Source: Salsipaludibacter albus
GTDB lineage: Bacteria > Actinomycetota > Nitriliruptoria > Nitriliruptorales > Nitriliruptoraceae
DNA: 64,000 bases
Assembly (NCBI RefSeq): GCF_019798055.1
Contig: NZ_JAHOPH010000004.1
Span: forward strand, 62,001-126,000
Direction: 5' to 3'
Shown here: positions 23,005-38,596 of the stretch, piece after piece
Numbering within the stretch: the stretch's first letter is position 1
Layout of the letters: each line of letters opens with the position of its first letter
Translations under genes and position numbers: made by a program
Notes under the pieces: generated by a model
Database searches by the model: none
What the model saw: only the letters and a program-made list of their open reading frames with translations
Told to the model about the DNA's origin: nothing

Positions 23005-24672
23005 CTACTCCTCCGGCACGCTCACGGCCGCGAGGTCCACCCGTGGACCGGGCGCGAGCACGAATCCGGTCACGTCGTCGGACACGACGGTGCGCAGCAG
23101 GGGGTGGTACAGCGGCGCGATCACGGCCAGGTCCAGCGCGGCCTGCTCGGCCTCCTCCCACGCCGCCCGACGGCCGTTGGACGTCACCGCCGTGCGTGCC
23201 GCGAGCAACGGCTCCTGCACCTCCGCGTCGTCGATGCGGCCGGGGTTGTCCAGCGGACTGGCCGTCGCGTCCAGCATCGGGTCGAGGAACCCGCCCATCG
23301 TCGGGCGGGTCGCGGACCAGCCGCCGAGGAACAGGTCGAACTGGCCCTCGGCGAGCGCCTCCGCGTAGCGATCGAGCGGCTGGGGCCGAAACGCCACCGC
23401 CACGTCCAGCGCACCACGCAGGGCGGTCACGATCGACTCCGCGACACGGGTCGACGCCGGGTCGTCGGGGGCGATCAGCACGATCGAGTCCTGCAGCGGT
23501 GCCTCGACCGCCTCCAGCAGTCCGAGCGCCTCCACCAGGTCACGCCGACAGTGGTCGCACGTGGCCTCGCCCGCCCCGGGGATGCCGGGCGACACGATGC
23601 CGTCGGCCGCGACGCGGCCCTGGCTGCCGACCTGCGCCACCAGCACGTCTCGGTCGATCAGCAACGACACCGCGCGACGCACGTCCGGGTCGTCGAAGGG
23701 CGGCTCGGACGTGTCGAACCCCAGGTAGGTCAGGGAGGCGCGTGCGCCGTCGACCACCCCCGGGCCGGCGTGGCCGTCCGGCGACCGGCCGTACAGCACC
23801 TGGGCCGGCTCCACCTCGTCCACCGGCACGCTGGCGACGTCCAGCGCCCCGGCACGGAAGTCCTCGTACTGCACCTGCTCGGAGCCCAGCTGCGCGTAGA
23901 TGGGCAGCAGCACCTCGTCGACCGTCGCCGCGGCGTGGTGTCCCACGGTCGGGGCCAGCCGGATGAACTGGTTGTGCGCCCACGCCTCGCCCATGCGGAA
24001 CGGTCCGTTGCCGACCGGCCGCTCGGGATCTGGAGGTTCCTCCCGCCGTGGTGCCAGGGCAGGGTCCGACACCAGGGCCGGCAGGTCGGCGAACGGCGCC
24101 GGCAGGCGGATCACCAGCGTGGTCTCGTCCTCGGCCCGGACGTCGATCGCGCCCGCGTCGTCCAGGAGCGGCTCGACCAGGTTCCGGTTGAACGGTGGGT
24201 CATCGGCCTCGGCGAGGTGCCGGAAGGCCCGCACGAAGTCCTCGGCGACGACCGGGGTCCCGTCGTGCCAGCGGCCACCGGTGCGCAGCAGGAAGGTCCA
24301 CTCGAGGTCGTCGGGCCCGACCGTCCAGTTCAGGGCCGCCGACGGGCGCGCCCCGGCCACGTCCGGCGGCATCTCGGTCAGCGAGTCGTACAGCGCGTCC
24401 ACGACGTACCGCCCGGCCTCGTCACGCACCTCGGCGGGGTCCAGGGTGGCGGGGTCGCGATCAAGCGCCATGCGCAGCCGTGACTGGGGCGCGTCGCTGG
24501 GTCGGGGCGCGATGCTGGTCGGGGCAGGAGTCGGACCCACCGAAGGAGTCGCGGGCATCGTCGCCACCGGCGAGGGTGATGCCGGGCTGCCGCCACGTGA
24601 CCACGTGCACGCCGTCAGCGTGAGCAGGAGCACCAGGAGGAGGACCGGACGTCGGGCCTGAGGTCGTCCCAC
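23005..24672 (-). CDS. peptide/oligopeptide-binding lipoprotein (SBP family 5), normal domain order
   Basis: A 555-residue extracytoplasmic solute-binding protein. The GTG 24672 start has GAGGA 6 nt upstream. Signal peptide RRPVLLLVLLLTLTAC ends in a lipobox with lipidated Cys; a Pro/Thr/Ser-rich linker follows to about residue 60. The domain order is the standard one: RLRMALDRDPATLDP and WTFLLRTGGRWHDGTPVVAE first, GNGPFRMGE next, then SLTYLGFDTSEPPFDDPDV and RRAVSLLIDRDVLV in the second half. It follows secG by 19 nt and has no permease of its own here, so it may serve the oppBCDF transporter upstream. It gives a useful in-window comparison for the permuted protein at 32203-34038. Confidence 0.9.
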   Translation of the reverse strand: MGRPQARRPVLLLVLLLTLTACTWSRGGSPASPSPVATMPATPSVGPTPAPTSIAPRPSDAPQSRLRMALDRDPATLDPAEVRDEAGRYVVDALYDSLTEMPPDVAGARPSAALNWTVGPDDLEWTFLLRTGGRWHDGTPVVAEDFVRAFRHLAEADDPPFNRNLVEPLLDDAGAIDVRAEDETTLVIRLPAPFADLPALVSDPALAPRREEPPDPERPVGNGPFRMGEAWAHNQFIRLAPTVGHHAAATVDEVLLPIYAQLGSEQVQYEDFRAGALDVASVPVDEVEPAQVLYGRSPDGHAGPGVVDGARASLTYLGFDTSEPPFDDPDVRRAVSLLIDRDVLVAQVGSQGRVAADGIVSPGIPGAGEATCDHCRRDLVEALGLLEAVEAPLQDSIVLIAPDDPASTRVAESIVTALRGALDVAVAFRPQPLDRYAEALAEGQFDLFLGGWSATRPTMGGFLDPMLDATASPLDNPGRIDDAEVQEPLLAARTAVTSNGRRAAWEEAEQAALDLAVIAPLYHPLLRTVVSDDVTGFVLAPGPRVDLAAVSVPEE

Positions 24673-24691
24673 GGGCGTCCTCGAGGTGGTC

Positions 24692-24913
24692 CTACAGCGT
24701 CTGGACCAGCAGGACACTGGTGATGAGCGCGCCCACGATGGCCACGACGGTCGCGCGGTCGAGGTTCTTCTCCACCACGGCCGAGCCACCCAGGCTGCCA
24801 CCGCCGCCGCCGAACATGTCGGAGAGCCCGCCGCCACTGCCACGGTGCAGCAGGACGAACAGGACGATGAACAGGCAGAAGATGACGTGCAGGGAGATCA
24901 GCACGATCGTCAT
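24692..24913 (-). CDS. secG: preprotein translocase subunit SecG
   Basis: A 73-residue membrane subunit of the SecYEG channel. The sequence has the two expected helices, VLISLHVIFCLFIVLFVLLH and ATVVAIVGALITSVLLVQTL, around the conserved glycine-rich GSGGGLSDMFGGGGGSLGG loop. ATG 24913 gives the family length; its ribosome site is weak. In most actinobacteria secG directly follows tpiA; here blaI and an M56 protease gene lie between them. Confidence 0.95.
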   Translation of the reverse strand: MTIVLISLHVIFCLFIVLFVLLHRGSGGGLSDMFGGGGGSLGGSAVVEKNLDRATVVAIVGALITSVLLVQTL

Positions 24914-26896: not shown

Positions 26897-27670
26897 TCAG
26901 CGTCGGTGGGTCACGATCAGGGCGAAGTCGTCGGCGTTGAGCGACGCGCCACCGACCAGGGCTCCGTCGATGTCCGGCTGCGACATCAGCTCGCGGACGT
27001 TGCCGGGCTTGACCGAGCCCCCGTACTGGACCCGGACGGCCGCGGCCACGTCGTCGCCCTTGAGCTCGGCGACCACCGACCGCACGTGGGCACACATGTC
27101 CTGGGCATCGTCGGGGGTGGCGGTCTCGCCGGTGCCGATCGCCCAGATCGGCTCGTAGGCGACGACCACCCGGGTCGGGTCCGCGAAGGACACCCCGTCG
27201 AGCGACCCGTGCAGTTGCCGCGACACCACGTCCGCCGCCTCGCCCGCGCGGCGCTCCTCCAGGGTCTCGCCGACCGCCACGATCGGGCCCATCCCGGCGG
27301 CCTGGACGGCGGCGGCCTTGGCGGCCACCAGCTCGTCGCCCTCCCCGAACAGCTGGCGCCGCTCCGAGTGGCCGACGATCACCCAGTCGACGTCGAGCCG
27401 GGCGAGCATGGGGGCGGAGATCTCGCCGGTGAAGGCCCCCGACGACTCGGGGTGGCAGTCCTGCGCGCCCAGCTGCAGGTCCAGCCGCTCGGCGTCGATG
27501 AGCACCTGGATGTTGCGCAGGGACACGAAGGGCGGACACACCACGACGTCCTGGCCCTCGTAGTCCTCGGGCTGGAGGTGGTAGGCCAGCTTCTGGACCA
27601 GCTGGGTCGCCTCCAGGTGGTCCTTGTGCATCTTCCAGTTGCCGGCCATGATCGGGTGGCGGTCTGTCAT
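26897..27670 (-). CDS. tpiA: triosephosphate isomerase
   Basis: Interconverts dihydroxyacetone phosphate and glyceraldehyde 3-phosphate in glycolysis. 257 residues from ATG 27670, complete TIM barrel: substrate lysine in AGNWKMHK, electrophilic histidine in VIVGHSERRQLFGE, catalytic glutamate in VAYEPIWAIGTG and phosphate-binding YGGSVKPGN and LVGGASL. It follows oppF by 59 nt on the same strand, separated from pgk by the whole opp block, although gap, pgk and tpiA normally adjoin. Confidence 0.97.
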   Translation of the reverse strand: MTDRHPIMAGNWKMHKDHLEATQLVQKLAYHLQPEDYEGQDVVVCPPFVSLRNIQVLIDAERLDLQLGAQDCHPESSGAFTGEISAPMLARLDVDWVIVGHSERRQLFGEGDELVAAKAAAVQAAGMGPIVAVGETLEERRAGEAADVVSRQLHGSLDGVSFADPTRVVVAYEPIWAIGTGETATPDDAQDMCAHVRSVVAELKGDDVAAAVRVQYGGSVKPGNVRELMSQPDIDGALVGGASLNADDFALIVTHRR

Positions 27671-27729
27671 CGAGTCGGATCCTCGTGGCGGGGTGTCATG
27701 ACGGGTGGCGTGGCGGGTCGAGCGTCTCG

Positions 27730-28887
27730 TCAGGGAAGGTCGTCACCGGGAGTCGTGACCTCGGCGCGATCGACGGTCTCGATGATGTGGCGTTCCTGCG
27801 GGTAGTGGCAGGCGGAGGGGTGGTCGTAGTCCCGCTCGGCCAGCTCGGGGGGCTCGTTGATGCACTTGTCGGTGCGGTTGCCACCCGTGGCCTCGTCCTC
27901 CTCCTTCATCTGGTTGAACAGCCAGCAGCGCGTCCGGAACCGACAGCCCGAGGGCGGGTTGGACGGCGACGGCAGGTCCCCCTGGAGCAGGATCCGTTCG
28001 GACGCGGCGCGACGGCGCGGGTCGGCGATCGGGGCCGCCGACAACAGGGCCTGGGTGTAGGGGTGGGTCGGCCGGTCGTAGATCTGTTCCTCGGTCCCGA
28101 TCTCGATGATCTTGCCGAGGTACATCACGGCCACCCGGTCGGCGATGTGGCGCACCACCGACAGGTCGTGGGCGATGAACAGGAAGGCGATCCCGAACTC
28201 TGCCTGGATGTCCTCGAGGAGGTTGACCACCTGGGCCTGGACCGACACGTCCAGGGCCGACACCGGCTCGTCGGCGATGATGACCGACGGGTTGACCGCC
28301 AGGGCACGGGCCACGCCGATGCGCTGGCGCTGGCCACCGGAGAACTGGTGGGGGAACCGGTTGATGTGGTCGGGGTTGAGTCCGACCAGGTCGAGCAGTT
28401 CGGCGACCCGGTCGCGTTGCTCGTTGCGGGGCAGGATGCCGGTGTGGATGCGCCACGGCTCGGCGATGATGTCGCCGACCGTCATGCGCGGGTTCAACGA
28501 CGAGTACGGGTCCTGGAAGATCATCTGGATGTCACGACGCGCGGCGCGCATGTCCTTGTTGGACATCGTGAACAGGTCCTGGCCCTGGAAGAACGCCTCG
28601 CCACCGGTCGGCTCGTGCAGTCGCAGCAGGGTGCGCGCAACGGTGGACTTGCCCGACCCGGACTCGCCGACCAGCCCGAGTGTCTCGCCCGGCCGGATCG
28701 AGAAGGACACGTCGTCGACGGCCTGGATCTGGCCGATGGTGCGCTTGAAGACGATGCCCTGGGTCAGCGGGAAGTGCTTGACCAGGTTGCGCACCTCCAG
28801 CACCGGCTCGTCGCCGGACCGGTCGACGGTCATCTGCTGCTCCGCGGGCTGCATCTGCTGCTCGGCATCGGTGGCGTCACTGGGCAT
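27730..28887 (-). CDS. oppF: oligopeptide ABC transporter ATP-binding protein OppF
   Basis: One of the two ATPases driving peptide import. 385 residues from ATG 28887, overlapping the oppD end by 11 nt. Walker [15 protein letters not shown], signature [15 protein letters not shown], Walker [15 protein letters not shown] and switch histidine [11 protein letters not shown] are all present. The C-terminal oligopeptide extension ([14 protein letters not shown]) contains CRFRTRC, with the next Cys only after a 20-residue acidic insertion. An N-terminal glutamine-rich leader ([12 protein letters not shown]) precedes the ABC domain. Confidence 0.95.
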
Positions 28888-29944
28888 CGACGATCTCCTC
28901 GCTGAAGTGGCAGGCGGCCAGTCGGTCGTCGTCGACCATCGACGCTGCCGGGATGCGCAGCTCGGGGTCCTTGTCCACGCACACCTGCTGGGCGAACCGG
29001 CACCGGGGGTGGAAGGCACAGCCGGACGGACGCCGGGTCAGGTCCGGGGGCGATCCCGGGATGGGCCGCAGGCGGCCACCCTTGACGTCCAGCTGGGGCA
29101 GCGACTCCATCAGGCCGATGGTGTAGGGGTGGGTCGGTGTGTGGTAGACGTCGTCGATCTCGCCGGTCTCGACGATCCGGCCGGCGTACATCACCGCGAC
29201 CCGGTCGGCGACCTCGGCCACGACGCCGAGGTCGTGGGTGATCAGGATCAGGCCCATGCCGGTCTCGGCCTGCAGTTCCGCCAGCAGGTCCATGACTTGG
29301 GCCTGCACGGTCACGTCCAGCGCCGTCGTCGGCTCGTCGGCGATCAGCACGGCCGGGTCCAGCGCCAACGACATCGCGATCATCACGCGCTGGCGCATCC
29401 CGCCCGAGAACTCGTGGGGGTAGGCGTCCAGGCGCTCCCTGGCCGACGGGATCTTGACCCGGTCCATGAGGTCCACGGCGACCTTGCGGGCCTCGGACTT
29501 GGACGTCCCTCGGTGCACGCGCAGCATCTCGGCGATCTGGAAGCCGACCGTGTAGACCGGGTTCAGGGCCGTGAGGGCGTCCTGGAAGATGATCGAGATG
29601 TGGTCACCACGGACCTTGCGGCGATCCTTCTCGGGCAGCTGCAGCAGGTCGATCCCGCGGTAGCGCACCGCTCCCCCGGTGATCGCGCCGGGCGGGCTGT
29701 CGATGATGCCCATGACGGCCTGGGCCGACACGGACTTGCCCGACCCGGACTCGCCCAGGATCGCCAGCGTCTCGCCGGCGTCGAGCTGGTAGTTCACCCG
29801 GTCGTTGGCGACCACCGTGCCGGTGGGCATGGTGAACTCGACCCGCAGGTCCTCGACCTGCAGCAGGGGTGCGTCGGGGTCGACGTCGTGGCCGGCGACC
29901 GTGGAGGCCGACAGCTTGGACGGTACGGACGTGGTGGTGGTCAT
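28877..29944 (-). CDS. oppD: oligopeptide ABC transporter ATP-binding protein OppD
   Basis: The second ATPase of the importer, 355 residues, starting directly after the oppC stop. Walker [16 protein letters not shown], signature [15 protein letters not shown], Walker [15 protein letters not shown], switch [10 protein letters not shown]. The C-terminal region ([14 protein letters not shown]) carries [14 protein letters not shown], the cysteine pattern found in OppD/DppD proteins where an iron-sulfur cluster has been reported. It pairs with OppF beneath OppB and OppC. Confidence 0.95.
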
Positions 29945-31027
29945 TCAGCGCCCCTTGGGGTCGAAGGCGTCACGCAGCATGTCGCCCATCACCATGAAGC
30001 CGAACACCGTGATGGCCAGCGCCATGCCCGGGAAGAACAGCAACTGGGGAATCTGCAGGATCCGGTCCTGGGCACCCGAGATCATCAGGCCCCACGAGAT
30101 GTTCGGCAGGGCCACGCCCACGCCCAGGAAGGACAGGGCGGCCTCGGCCGAGATGATCACGCCGATGAAGATCGTCGCGTAGACGATCACCGGGGTGATG
30201 CCGTTGGGGATGATGTGGCGCACCATCAGGCGGAAGTCGTTGGCGCCCAGGCTCCGCGATGCGGTCACGTAGTCCTGCTCCTTGCCGGCGATGACCTGGG
30301 AGCGCATCAGTCGCAGCATGGACGGCCAGCCGAACAACGTCAGCACGAATGCCACCTCCACCATGCCGCGGTCCCGCAGCACCGACAGCAGCACGATGCC
30401 ACCGAGGATGGTCGGGATGGCGAACCAGATGTCGGTGATGCGTGCGATGACGGCGTCGATGCTGCGACCGAAGTAGCCCGCGAGGGTCCCGAAGACCAGC
30501 GCGATGATCACCGAGGCCAGCGTCACGATCACGCCGATGAAGATCGAGATCCGCGCACCGAGGATGGTGCGCACGTAGAGATCGCAACCCTGGATGTCGA
30601 AGCCGAACCAGTTGGTCGACGAGGGCCGGCCGCCGTTGGGGGCATTGGGGCTCTGGACCGAGTTGCTGAGCGTGCAGAAGGTCTTGGCCTGTTCCGGGTT
30701 GTCGGGGAACGGGTTGTAGAACCACAGGTAGGCCTGCGGGAACACGGCCATGACCACCATCGCCAGGATCAGGAACAACGCCAGCCAGAACAGCGGCTTG
30801 TGCTTGAGGACCCGCCAGCCGTCGGCCCACAGGCTGGTCGGGCCGCCGACCTCCTCCGCGCCACTGGCATCGGCCAGCTCGATGTCGCGCACCAGCTCGC
30901 CGTGCTCGCCGGTCCGGGCGTGCTCGACCTTGCGGTGCCCGCCGGTGCCACCGACCGCTTCCTCGCCGGTCGCGGGGTCGTCGGTCTCGTCGCGATTCTC
31001 GTGCTTGGTGTCGAGGTGGTCACTCAT
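29945..31027 (-). CDS. oppC: oligopeptide ABC transporter permease OppC
   Basis: A 360-residue inner-membrane permease. The N-terminal 75 residues are long, charged and cytoplasmic; the first helix is PLFWLALFLILAMVVMAVFP. A periplasmic loop with FDIQGCDLYVRTILGARIS leads to five helices; the EAA loop RSLGANDFRLMVRHIIPNGI contacts the ATPases. ATG 31027 overlaps oppB by 8 nt. Confidence 0.94.
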   Translation of the reverse strand: MSDHLDTKHENRDETDDPATGEEAVGGTGGHRKVEHARTGEHGELVRDIELADASGAEEVGGPTSLWADGWRVLKHKPLFWLALFLILAMVVMAVFPQAYLWFYNPFPDNPEQAKTFCTLSNSVQSPNAPNGGRPSSTNWFGFDIQGCDLYVRTILGARISIFIGVIVTLASVIIALVFGTLAGYFGRSIDAVIARITDIWFAIPTILGGIVLLSVLRDRGMVEVAFVLTLFGWPSMLRLMRSQVIAGKEQDYVTASRSLGANDFRLMVRHIIPNGITPVIVYATIFIGVIISAEAALSFLGVGVALPNISWGLMISGAQDRILQIPQLLFFPGMALAITVFGFMVMGDMLRDAFDPKGR

Positions 31028-32006
31028 AGCGGATCCTCGGGTCGAGCCAGGCATACATCACGTCCACCAGCAGGTTGGAGATCATGAAGATCACCACCAG
31101 GAAGGTCGTCACCCCGACGACCACCGGACCGTCGGAGCGGATGATGCCCTCGAAGACGGTCCGACCGATGCCGGGGATGTTGAAGATGCCCTCGGTGATG
31201 ATCGCCCCACCCATCAGCGCCCCCAGGTCGATGCCCAGGTAGGTGATGACGGGGATGAGGGAGTTGCGCAACGTGTGGCGCCCGATCACGCGGGTGCGGG
31301 GCAGGCCCTTGGCCGTGGCCGTCTTCACGTAGTCCGCCCGCAGGTTCTCGTTCAGCGAGGTCCGCGTCAGCCGCGCGATGTAGGCCAGGGACGTGGCTCC
31401 CAGCACCATCGCGGGCAGGATCAACTGCCCGAAGGTGGCCTGGGCCGCGTTGACCGGGGCCCAGCCAAGTCTCACCCCCACGATCAGCTGGGCGGCGTAG
31501 CCCGCCACGAACACGGGGATCGCGATCACCGCCAGGGTGGACACGAGGACGAGGTTGTCGGCGAACGAGCCGCGTCTGAGGCCCGCGATCACCCCCGCGG
31601 AGATGCCGAGGACGATCTCGAACACGAACGCCATCAGGGCGAGCTTGGCGGTCTTGGGGATGGCGTCGGCCATGATGTCGCTGACCGGCCGGCGGTTCAG
31701 CGAGTACCCGAACTCGCCCTGCAGGACCCCGGCGAAGCCGTCGCCCGGCTCGCCCGCGATCTCCTGGTCGAGCGTCGGGTCCTGCGGGATCAACCCGATG
31801 TACTTGCCGTACTGCTCCAGCAGGGGATCCTCGAGGTTGTAGCGATCCTCCAGCACCGCCTTGGTGGTCGGATCGACCGGCTTGTCACCGGCCAGCGCCT
31901 GGATGGGGTCTCCCGGGATGGCGAAGACCATGGCGAAGATCAGGAAGGTCGCCCCGAAGAACACCGGGATGAACTGCAGGATCCTTCGGATGATGTAGCG
32001 AAACAT
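31020..32006 (-). CDS. oppB: oligopeptide ABC transporter permease OppB
   Basis: A 328-residue permease. ATG 32006 is chosen over 32027 because GGGGAG lies 6 nt upstream and MFRYIIRRILQFIPVFFGAT is the family-typical N-terminus. The EAA motif is TATAKGLPRTRVIGRHTLRN, and the last helices end in LDPRIRYE. The substrate-binding gene lies upstream, separated by a strong hairpin at 32145-32177. Confidence 0.94.
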   Translation of the reverse strand: MFRYIIRRILQFIPVFFGATFLIFAMVFAIPGDPIQALAGDKPVDPTTKAVLEDRYNLEDPLLEQYGKYIGLIPQDPTLDQEIAGEPGDGFAGVLQGEFGYSLNRRPVSDIMADAIPKTAKLALMAFVFEIVLGISAGVIAGLRRGSFADNLVLVSTLAVIAIPVFVAGYAAQLIVGVRLGWAPVNAAQATFGQLILPAMVLGATSLAYIARLTRTSLNENLRADYVKTATAKGLPRTRVIGRHTLRNSLIPVITYLGIDLGALMGGAIITEGIFNIPGIGRTVFEGIIRSDGPVVVGVTTFLVVIFMISNLLVDVMYAWLDPRIRYE

Positions 32007-32144
32007 CGACGACTCCCCTCGAGACATGCGCCGGGGTCACGACGGCTGCGGGTCATGCTAGGCGTCGTGCCGGCCAACGTCCTGCCGGACCGCGGGGGTG
32101 TGCCGTCAACGCACCGCGCGCCACGAACTGCCTGCTGACATGCC

Positions 32145-32177
32145 CCGGGGGGAGCAGGACGAGCCTGCTCCCCCCGG
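32145..32177 (-). terminator. 14-bp hairpin between oppA and oppB
   Basis: Perfect 14-bp arms (32145-32158 and 32164-32177; CCGGGGGGAGCAGG and its complement) with a 5-nt loop lie 26 nt after the oppA stop. It would end most transcripts after the binding protein, or protect their 3' ends, leaving lower permease expression by read-through. Confidence 0.8.
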
Positions 32178-32202
32178 ACGGGTCATGCGTGGTTCGGGTG
32201 GA

Positions 32203-34038
32203 TCAACCGTGCCAGCTGGCAGCCAGCTCGAGGTCGATCGGGAACCCGAGGTAGTTGAAGGACGAGGTCGCTTCCTCGATGTAGCGGTCGCCGAACTCGT
32301 CCTGGGCGGCGGTGATCTCCGCGAGCGGCACCTGGTCCATCACGTCCAGCGCACCGGAGCGCAGGTCGTTGTAGCCCGTGGTGTCCTCGGCGTAGATCTT
32401 GTAGGTGATGGAGTCCACGTTCGGACCCTCGCCACCGAAGTCCGGGTATGCAGTCGTCGCGACCTGCACGTCGTGCTCCCACGAACCGTCCATCATGAAC
32501 GGACCGTTGCCGACCGGGGCCTCGCCCCAGGCGTTCAGGGCGTCGGCGCCCTGCTCAGCGGCCTCGAAGAACGACGGAGGCAGCGGGTCGAACGCGTTGT
32601 ACAGCAGCACCAGGGGGAGCTGCGGGAACGGCGCGTCCAGGGTAATCTCGATGGTCGTGTCGTCCACGGCCTCGATGCCCGAGATGGTGTCGGTCGACGG
32701 CGGCGAGTTCTCGCAGTCCGCGACCTCTTCCCCGACCTCGGCCGCAACCTCGGCGTCGACGTCCTCCTGGGTGGCCTCACGGGTCCCACAGGCAGACACG
32801 TCGCCGTAGCCGGCGAACTGGGGCAGGCTGAAGAAGTAGCTGTTCTGCGCGGCGTTCGGGGCGTACGCACCCCAGTTCCACGCGTCCACGAACGACTGCG
32901 CCGTCACCGGCGACCCGTCGTGGAACGTCCAGCCCTCGTTCAGGGTGATCGTCCACTCGGTGCCCTCGTCGTTGGACTCGAAGCCCTCGGCGACCTCGTC
33001 GAAGACGATCTCACCGGAGTCCTTGTCGAGGCTCCACAGACCCGAGAACAGGCCGTTGACGACCTCGGACCCGCAGGTCTCGTTGGTCATCGAGCCGAAC
33101 AGGGAGTTCTGCGGCTCACAGACGTAGACGGACACGTCGCCGTCCTGGCTCTCGACCTCGGTCACGTTGAGTGCCTGGAACGAGTCGAAGCTGACGTTGG
33201 ACACGTCCTCCGAGTACACGGCCTGCAGCAGCCCGTAGAACATCGGGACGATCGGCAGCTCCTCACAGAGGATGTCACCGGCAGCCTGGTAGTCGGTCAC
33301 GGCCTCCTCGAGGGACTTCGAGTCGCCAGCCTGGACGGCCGCGTCGAACTCCTCGTTGGAGAACCCGGTGTGGTTGGACGAACCGGCGGTCGCGTGGATC
33401 GGGCCCAGGAAGTTGCCCGGCGACGGGTAGTCCATCAGCCAGCCGAGACGGAACGGACCGTCGACCTCGGCGTTGTCGAGCTTGTCGAGGTAGTCACCGA
33501 AGGGCAGCGACTCGAACGCGACGTCGGAGACACCCAGCGTGTTCTGCAGCTGGTTGCTGACGGCCTCGACCCACTCCTCGTGGCCTGCACCGGAGTTGAA
33601 CCAGAAGGTGATTGGACCAGCGTCACCACCGGCCTCCTCCCACAGTGCAGCCGCCTCTTCGGGGTTGTACTGGAGGTTGGGGCAGAAGTCGCCACCGCGA
33701 TAGCCGACGAAGGTCGGGGGCCAGAAGTCGTCGCCCGGGGCACGCGTGCCCTGGAAGATGACGTCCACGATCTCCTGCTTGTTGATCGCCATGGACACGG
33801 CCTGGCGACGACGCACGTCGCTCCAGTCGTAGCCGTCGCCACCAGCGGTGCCTTCTTCCGAGGGCGCAGCGCTGGCGTCGGGGGCCGCAGACTCGGTTGA
33901 GGTCTCGGTGGACGTCTCGGTGTCGGTGGAGGTCTCGGTGTCGGTGGTCTCCGGCTCGTCGCCGCCTGAACAGGCAGTCAGTACGAGCGCACTCACCGCG
34001 AGGGCGCCGACGAGGCGGCGCATCTTGCGTGTCTTCAT
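32203..34038 (-). CDS. oppA: oligopeptide-binding lipoprotein OppA, circularly permuted
   Basis: Expected to capture peptides for OppBCDF. ATG 34038 has AAAGGA upstream; signal peptide RRLVGALAVSALVLTAC ends in lipobox Cys22; a Thr/Ser/Glu-rich linker runs to about residue 69. The SBP family-5 fold then appears with its halves exchanged. Residues 70-297 are what is normally the C-terminal half (DVRRRQAVSMAINKQEIVDV, RLGWLMDYPSPGNFLGPIHA, PMFYGLLQAVYSEDVSNV). Residues 300-611 are normally the N-terminal half (DVSVYVCEPQNS, WTITLNEGWTFHDGSPVTAQ, VGNGPFMMDG, LRSGALDVMDQVPL) and end at SSFNYLGFPIDL plus a few residues, just where DVRRRQ should follow. The frame is intact, with one start, one stop and one signal peptide, so this is a circular permutation. 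Only the position of the cut is inferred. Confidence 0.9.
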   Translation of the reverse strand: MKTRKMRRLVGALAVSALVLTACSGGDEPETTDTETSTDTETSTETSTESAAPDASAAPSEEGTAGGDGYDWSDVRRRQAVSMAINKQEIVDVIFQGTRAPGDDFWPPTFVGYRGGDFCPNLQYNPEEAAALWEEAGGDAGPITFWFNSGAGHEEWVEAVSNQLQNTLGVSDVAFESLPFGDYLDKLDNAEVDGPFRLGWLMDYPSPGNFLGPIHATAGSSNHTGFSNEEFDAAVQAGDSKSLEEAVTDYQAAGDILCEELPIVPMFYGLLQAVYSEDVSNVSFDSFQALNVTEVESQDGDVSVYVCEPQNSLFGSMTNETCGSEVVNGLFSGLWSLDKDSGEIVFDEVAEGFESNDEGTEWTITLNEGWTFHDGSPVTAQSFVDAWNWGAYAPNAAQNSYFFSLPQFAGYGDVSACGTREATQEDVDAEVAAEVGEEVADCENSPPSTDTISGIEAVDDTTIEITLDAPFPQLPLVLLYNAFDPLPPSFFEAAEQGADALNAWGEAPVGNGPFMMDGSWEHDVQVATTAYPDFGGEGPNVDSITYKIYAEDTTGYNDLRSGALDVMDQVPLAEITAAQDEFGDRYIEEATSSFNYLGFPIDLELAASWHG

Positions 34039-34343
34039 GAAGTGCGTCCTTTGTAGATGAGTCGGGCCCTACGATCACGGTAGGAGCCGATGATGGGAAC
34101 AGTACCGAGCCACGCGAGGGATTGTCCGCATGGGCGTTCGCTCGGCGAACACCTCGGGTGCAGCCCCGTTCGGGGGCGCGTTCCCGGCAGCGAGGCTACC
34201 GGACAGTGGTCACGCGGACAGGATGGGCGCCCGCCGACTCCGGTCGACCCCACTGCAGCACGGGTGTGCGCCTGCTCAGCCCCCGAAACGCGCTTCGTGC
34301 GCGAAACGCACGCGTCGTGGCCGACCGGAGGCTGGTGCGGTGA
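34039..34343. other. intergenic region between pgk and oppA
   Basis: 305 nt with no supported gene. It should hold the oppA promoter and, at 34068-34084, an inverted repeat CCTAC-N7-GTAGG near it that may be an operator. Nearer pgk, CGAAACGC is repeated directly (34284 and 34302) around a small palindrome. No clear terminator for pgk is seen. Confidence 0.45.
34068..34084 (-). promoter_or_regulatory. inverted repeat upstream of oppA
   Basis: CCTAC (34068-34072) and GTAGG (34080-34084) flank 7 nt, 30-46 nt before the oppA start. The position fits an operator or a 5' leader hairpin; neither role is proven. Confidence 0.3.

Positions 34344-38596
<4,253 letters not shown>

Follow-up and report, generated by a model that had tools for sequence, protein, structure and literature searches.

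A circularly permuted peptide-binding lipoprotein gene at the head of an opp operon in Salsipaludibacter albus, and its counterparts in Actinomycetota and Bacillota

Introduction

The native N- and C-termini of family-5 substrate-binding proteins (SBPs) neighbour each other in lobe I, and SBPs can accommodate new termini in their surface loops. In this family (cluster C), with Mycobacterium tuberculosis DppA (Rv3666c; structures 6e4d and 8wd9) and Escherichia coli DppA and OppA as its known representatives, PF00496 extends across the whole fold. This feature is common to the protein described here, as are the oppBCDF operon, the DYPS region and, for the Gram-positive members, the lipoprotein nature. 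The difference lies in the order of the fold, which is normal in all solved chains that we found, but permuted in our protein.

A lipid-anchored SBP that is circularly permuted in nature has been described, namely TpMglB-2 (Tp0684) of Treponema pallidum, designated 'Type Ic / Cluster Bc' (PMC4990184). TpMglB-2 folds, binds glucose and changes conformation, its relatives are found mainly in treponemes and Gram-positive bacteria, and, according to its authors, the permutation may have been promoted by tethering (PMC4990184). Our protein resembles it in being a permuted, lipid-anchored SBP with the signal still in front. However, TpMglB-2 is a cluster B sugar SBP with a displaced piece of ~70–100 residues and one founding case, whereas here we deal with cluster C, four break sites and at least 10 changes of order. 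Circularly permuted SBPs have also been engineered in biosensor work (e.g. PMC6335823); these are artificial, whereas those reported below are natural and repeated, and are opened in different loops even in orthologues at one locus. Natural SBP permutation is thus already known for one cluster B lineage, while its recurrence in family 5 appears to be undescribed: the open-access literature yielded no description of family-5 SBPs with permuted order, and the one paper in which both terms occur (PMC2588589) is incidental.

Results and Discussion

Order and completeness of the fold

The window, by which we mean the whole stretch of 64,000 nucleotides analysed, carries one gene that a sequence-only reading had proposed to encode a circularly permuted SBP (Table 1). 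The swapped order was recovered by Pfam, by phmmer against 6e4d and by a canonical profile of 546 positions (denoted h), built from 74 normal-order homologues. PF00496 matches the protein with 210 bits, against a cut-off of 32.4, in two stretches, and no single collinear alignment was obtained; the better stretch covers residues 349–599 (profile 6–206), and a genome search places profile 213–366 in the 5′ part of the same frame. With phmmer (254 bits in total), query residues 307–416, 447–588 and 77–283 align to residues 9–113, 118–258 and 284–495 of the 6e4d chain, so that the order is swapped. Along the protein, the profile is traversed as h6–51 (signal and linker), h321–543 and h54–317, instead of in collinear canonical order (in this mapping the residue count begins 10 aa upstream). 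By both profile and phmmer the fold is complete, with no part absent and no part doubled; the whole domain is present once, in rotated order and with its old ends joined, as in a circular permutant. SBP_bac_5 (PF00496), to which the cluster C peptide SBPs belong, was the sole Pfam match, and no cluster B (Type I) sugar-binding fold was matched.

Table 1. Features of the permuted SBP gene and its surroundings (positions in the window).
Feature	Position	Strand	Basis or remarks
Circularly permuted family-5 substrate-binding lipoprotein gene	32203..34038	-	611 aa from ATG
Lipoprotein signal peptide, residues 1–23, lipobox LTAC	33970..34038	-	sequence; aligns to h6–51 signal region of normal homologues
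Low-complexity Ser/Thr/Glu-rich linker, residues 24–72, running into break-A start DVRRRQ	33823..33969	-	sequence and profile
Canonical C-terminal half, residues ~73–297, h321–543	33148..33822	-	phmmer and profile
Canonical N-terminal half, residues ~298–611, h54–317, ending FNYLGFPIDLELAASWHG	32206..33147	-	Pfam, phmmer, profile; same end in congener G001
oppB-type permease	31020..32027	-	PF00528 and PF19300
oppC-type permease	29945..31054	-	PF00528 and PF12911
oppD-type ATPase	28877..29944	-	PF00005 and PF08352
oppF-type ATPase	27730..29019	-	PF00005 and PF08352
pgk, upstream syntenic anchor (start not determined)	34344..35654	-	PF00162
tpi, downstream syntenic anchor	26897..27670	-	PF00121
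Second family-5 SBP, normal order, internal control (start uncertain)	23005..24843	-	single PF00496 match 3–364

The N-terminal signal, MKTRKMRRLVGALAVSALVLTAC, with its lipobox is that of a Gram-positive lipoprotein SBP. At residue ~73 the linker passes directly into DVRRRQAVSMAINK, with which the second half starts in the family. The closest solved relative is M. tuberculosis DppA, whose substrate-aspartate region (DYPS) is retained in the phmmer alignment; to judge from the numbering, this aspartate is presumably the residue mutated in entry 8xfc (D445A). The other family-5 SBP of the window gives one collinear match, and therefore holds as the normal-order control for which it had been put forward, although its open frame reaches upstream of the start given for it earlier (23005–24672), to 24843.

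No solved chain with permuted order was found: the best structure matches of four permuted queries were order-swapped stretches or covered one side. An AlphaFold2 model of the window protein, made from a thin alignment of halves of normal homologues, had a mean pLDDT of 57, and we set it aside as too weak to serve as evidence for the fold; a normal homologue run as a control, also with a shallow alignment, reached 68.6. The best Foldseek matches of the weak model were DppA chains, with about half of the chain aligned, as a sequential aligner must give on a permutation.

The opp operon and its syntenic locus

The permuted gene lies directly upstream of oppBCDF, as the first gene of an intact operon in which Pfam identifies the OppB/C permeases and the OppD/F ATPases of oligopeptide type, in agreement with the otherwise normal opp operon of the sequence-only reading. 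It is the sole SBP gene at that position. The operon sits inside a gap-pgk-tpi glycolysis cluster (window positions 26897–37717), an arrangement common to other members of the order.

Since the operon is flanked by pgk and tpi, the same locus can be compared across genomes. The arrangement pgk-[SBP-oppBCDF]-tpi contains a normal-order SBP in G028, of the same family, and in G035, of the same order, while in the window genome (G000) the SBP is permuted at the site that we call break A, and in G002, of the same family, at a different site, break B; gap adjoins pgk in G002 too. From these orders the locus was most likely ancestrally normal, and would have undergone at least two permutations, one at break A in the genus of the window and one at break B in another. 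In G009 (L283 4653–9100) a normal-order SBP lies between pgk and tpi without oppBCDF, reflecting either loss of the operon or an assembly gap.

In a congener (G001), oppBCDF-tpi is collinear with the window, with ~80% DNA identity across the opp part. Its SBP gene is cut by the contig end, leaving 83 residues in which the 3′ break alone is visible. This break is the same, as had been sought in relatives: the two proteins stop at the same position (LELAASWN* against LELAASWHG*), and across these last 83 residues they are 84% identical with a dN/dS of 0.18.

The window genome encodes a second permuted SBP, on contig 8 (L070 5879–7738), in a frame of 619 codons followed by its own oppBCDF. It is opened at break B, and the profile order is signal, h173–543, h56–150. 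Its orthologue in the congener (L072 5928–7796, G001:C106) gives a dN/dS of 0.42 over 590 codons. In some B-type permutants (L072; L212 4960–6762) the C-terminus is a tail rich in Ser, Thr and Glu, e.g. ATETATSTETGSETTSEAPTGSETPTESES; it is similar to the N-terminal linker and may be a remnant of the event that made the join.

Distribution of permuted family-5 SBPs

Other genomes were surveyed with a junction profile, in which the end of the C-terminal half is joined to the start of the N-terminal half, so that a permutant yields one spanning hit and a normal protein two separate hits. Stop-free spanning hits were counted among the matches listed, and the counts are therefore lower bounds. Permuted family-5 SBPs are widespread in Actinomycetota and Bacillota: permutants occur in at least 6 of 66 genomes of the window organism's own class, in at least 30 of 247 genomes (at least 35 places) of one actinobacterial class, that of G375, in at least 11 of 297 (at least 13 places) of the order of G354, and in at least 33 of 300 Bacillota genomes (at least 55 places). 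Further permutants come from a Subdoligranulum variabile plasmid record, a Syntrophomonadaceae MAG and a Bacillus MAG.

Among the matches listed for 299 genomes of Pseudomonadota, the same profile gave no stop-free spanning hit. As this null result with an actinobacterial profile is open to the objection of profile bias, a second junction profile was made from normal-order homologues, nearly all of them from Pseudomonadota. Of the 86 known permutants, 83 are picked up by this profile in a single spanning hit, yet it gave no stop-free spanning hit among the matches listed for 249 genomes of Pseudomonadota, a sample that overlaps with the first.

Some individual cases deserve mention. A C-type permutant in G055 (L128 4798–6201, reverse strand) lies on a 5.8-Mb contig and its frame begins inside the fold (h449), owing to a frameshift, a sequencing error or truncation of the gene, and another C-type permutant (L231 1672–2814, G1180) is interrupted by an in-frame TAG, which may reflect a pseudogene, an error or recoding. 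G851, considered as a tandem SBP, was rejected, being a normal-order gene whose match extends beyond its stop.

Break sites and number of events

When 86 permutants are mapped onto the canonical profile, their breaks fall at four sites. Break A (h317/h321) is found in the window protein and L215; break B (~h145–173) in the largest actinobacterial clade, in G002 and others, and in Subdoligranulum; break C (~h363–403) in many actinobacterial and most Bacillota cases; and break D (~h250) in L250 and L251. In most of the frames examined, a signal and linker come first and the fold follows from the break onwards, with a few frames cut by contig ends or unclear.

In trees for which permutants were restored to canonical order and the break regions masked, the number of changes between normal and permuted order was 8 among 115 proteins, 6 of them forced, and 12 among 164 proteins, of which at least 10 are forced by well supported branches; the larger tree comes from a quick search and has some long branches, and its counts do not separate gain from loss. 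The two A-type proteins fall in different supported groups. L215 (982–2586, reverse strand), from the Syntrophomonadaceae MAG and thus from a different phylum, stands next to normal-order relatives in the tree, and this position points to an independent event at the loop used by the window protein.

Origin of the permutation

A DNA trace is found in G354 (permuted at break C) and G721 (normal order), which share a family code and whose SBPs are sister proteins. The two operons are collinear save for two swapped blocks of ~1,017 bp and ~469 bp, 78–80% identical, which sit between the collinear signal-peptide region and the collinear oppB. In this exchange of blocks we see the signature of a mature-domain code that was circularly permuted in place. 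It fits either duplication of the mature segment with outer trimming, or excision of a circle and its re-insertion. The tandem duplication with loss of the outer halves and retention of one signal that had been suggested for the window gene agrees with such a swap, in which signal and flanks stay in place, but its doubled intermediate (signal-N-C-N-C) was absent from the 108 ORFs of at least 700 aa in the fetched loci.

For the window protein, we consider it highly probable from sequence comparison that it functions as the lipid-anchored, peptide-binding component of an importer of the Opp/Dpp type, with the mature domain circularly permuted in situ. Probably the mature segment was first duplicated in frame, and the outer pieces were then trimmed away. 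The signal peptide, lipobox and linker would have been kept at the 5′ end, the former C-terminus fused to the former N-terminus, and new termini opened in the loop between h317 and h321. The product would take up the usual two-lobed SBP fold, bind peptides and pass them to OppBCDF, with the lipid anchor attached at a different point of the fold.

Function and alternative explanations

Opp permease genes are adjacent to most of the permutants, dN/dS is below 1 in the pairs tested and DYPS is retained in the alignment of the window protein, which makes it most likely, as read from sequence, that the permuted proteins act as ordinary peptide SBPs. At 46 loci of the permuted set a downstream oppB/oppC match is present in the fetched stretch, often short; at several of the other loci the stretches are short or overlap. 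For nine pairs of full-length permutants dN/dS by simple counting ranges from 0.05 to 0.61, values of up to 0.6 in some pairs being a weak sign of constraint.

We tentatively suggest, without regarding the full statement as the probable one, that the family-5 SBPs of Gram-positive bacteria may be a hotspot of natural circular permutation, with at least 10 independent events, four loops and different cuts even in orthologues of a single locus; N-terminal membrane tethering would favour this by freeing or rewarding the moving of termini. Permutation could be adaptive, as proposed for TpMglB-2 (PMC4990184), in that it attaches the SBP to the membrane at a better point; this would explain why it recurs in Gram-positives but not in proteobacteria, whose periplasmic SBPs are free. 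The contrast of zero permutants among the matches listed for the two Pseudomonadota samples with the counts for Bacillota and the class of G375 agrees with this, as does a recognisable lipobox in 65 of 86 permutants; linkers are also slightly longer in permutants (median 40 against 30 in normal homologues), by a crude measure that counts unaligned residues in sets of different taxonomy. However, the signal peptide lacks a lipobox in about 15 Bacillota permutants, the four break sites indicate no single favoured tether point, and the taxon contrast may come from ancestry, so that we regard such an adaptive origin as unlikely. Bacillota permutants with a signal peptide and no recognised lipobox include L232, L236, L237, L239, L240, L242, L250 and L251, which argues against a purely anchor-based explanation. 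Neutral fixation after duplication is possible.

It is very improbable that the window gene is a decaying or non-functional rearrangement surviving by chance. Other SBPs are encoded in the genome, including a normal-order one just ~7 kb away, and dN/dS reaches 0.4–0.6 in some permuted pairs, but the frame is full-length with the whole fold exactly once, the tail is conserved in the congener (dN/dS 0.18 over 83 codons, and 0.05–0.2 in other permuted pairs), and the gene leads an intact opp operon with no other SBP at that position. That a fragmented metagenome assembly mis-joined SBP genes present in tandem or as repeats, as suggested by the 79 contigs of G000 and by the many permuted matches in fragmented assemblies, can practically be discounted and is excluded as far as the assemblies allow, since the separately assembled congener ends its SBP at the same place, the unrelated Bacillota protein L215 has the same cut and dozens of other permutants exist, permutants lie with neighbouring permease genes within single contigs of 3.0–4.3 Mb (G775, G678, G821), conserved clades of ~20–30 permuted proteins include several pairs with dN/dS well below 1, and break positions are confined to a few classes.

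Significance

Linear domain annotation silently takes permuted proteins for ordinary substrate-binding proteins. No NCBIfam model fits the permuted order, and the SBP matches among those listed are far under the cut-off, many of them in two stretches. Natural circular permutation has mostly been described case by case; here one widespread family gives many events of various ages, along with orthologues of normal order at one and the same locus, a recent pair in which the swapped DNA blocks can still be seen, and dozens of descendants that are stable. Together these make two questions testable, namely how bacteria permute a protein, and whether the point at which a lipoprotein receptor is tethered affects uptake.
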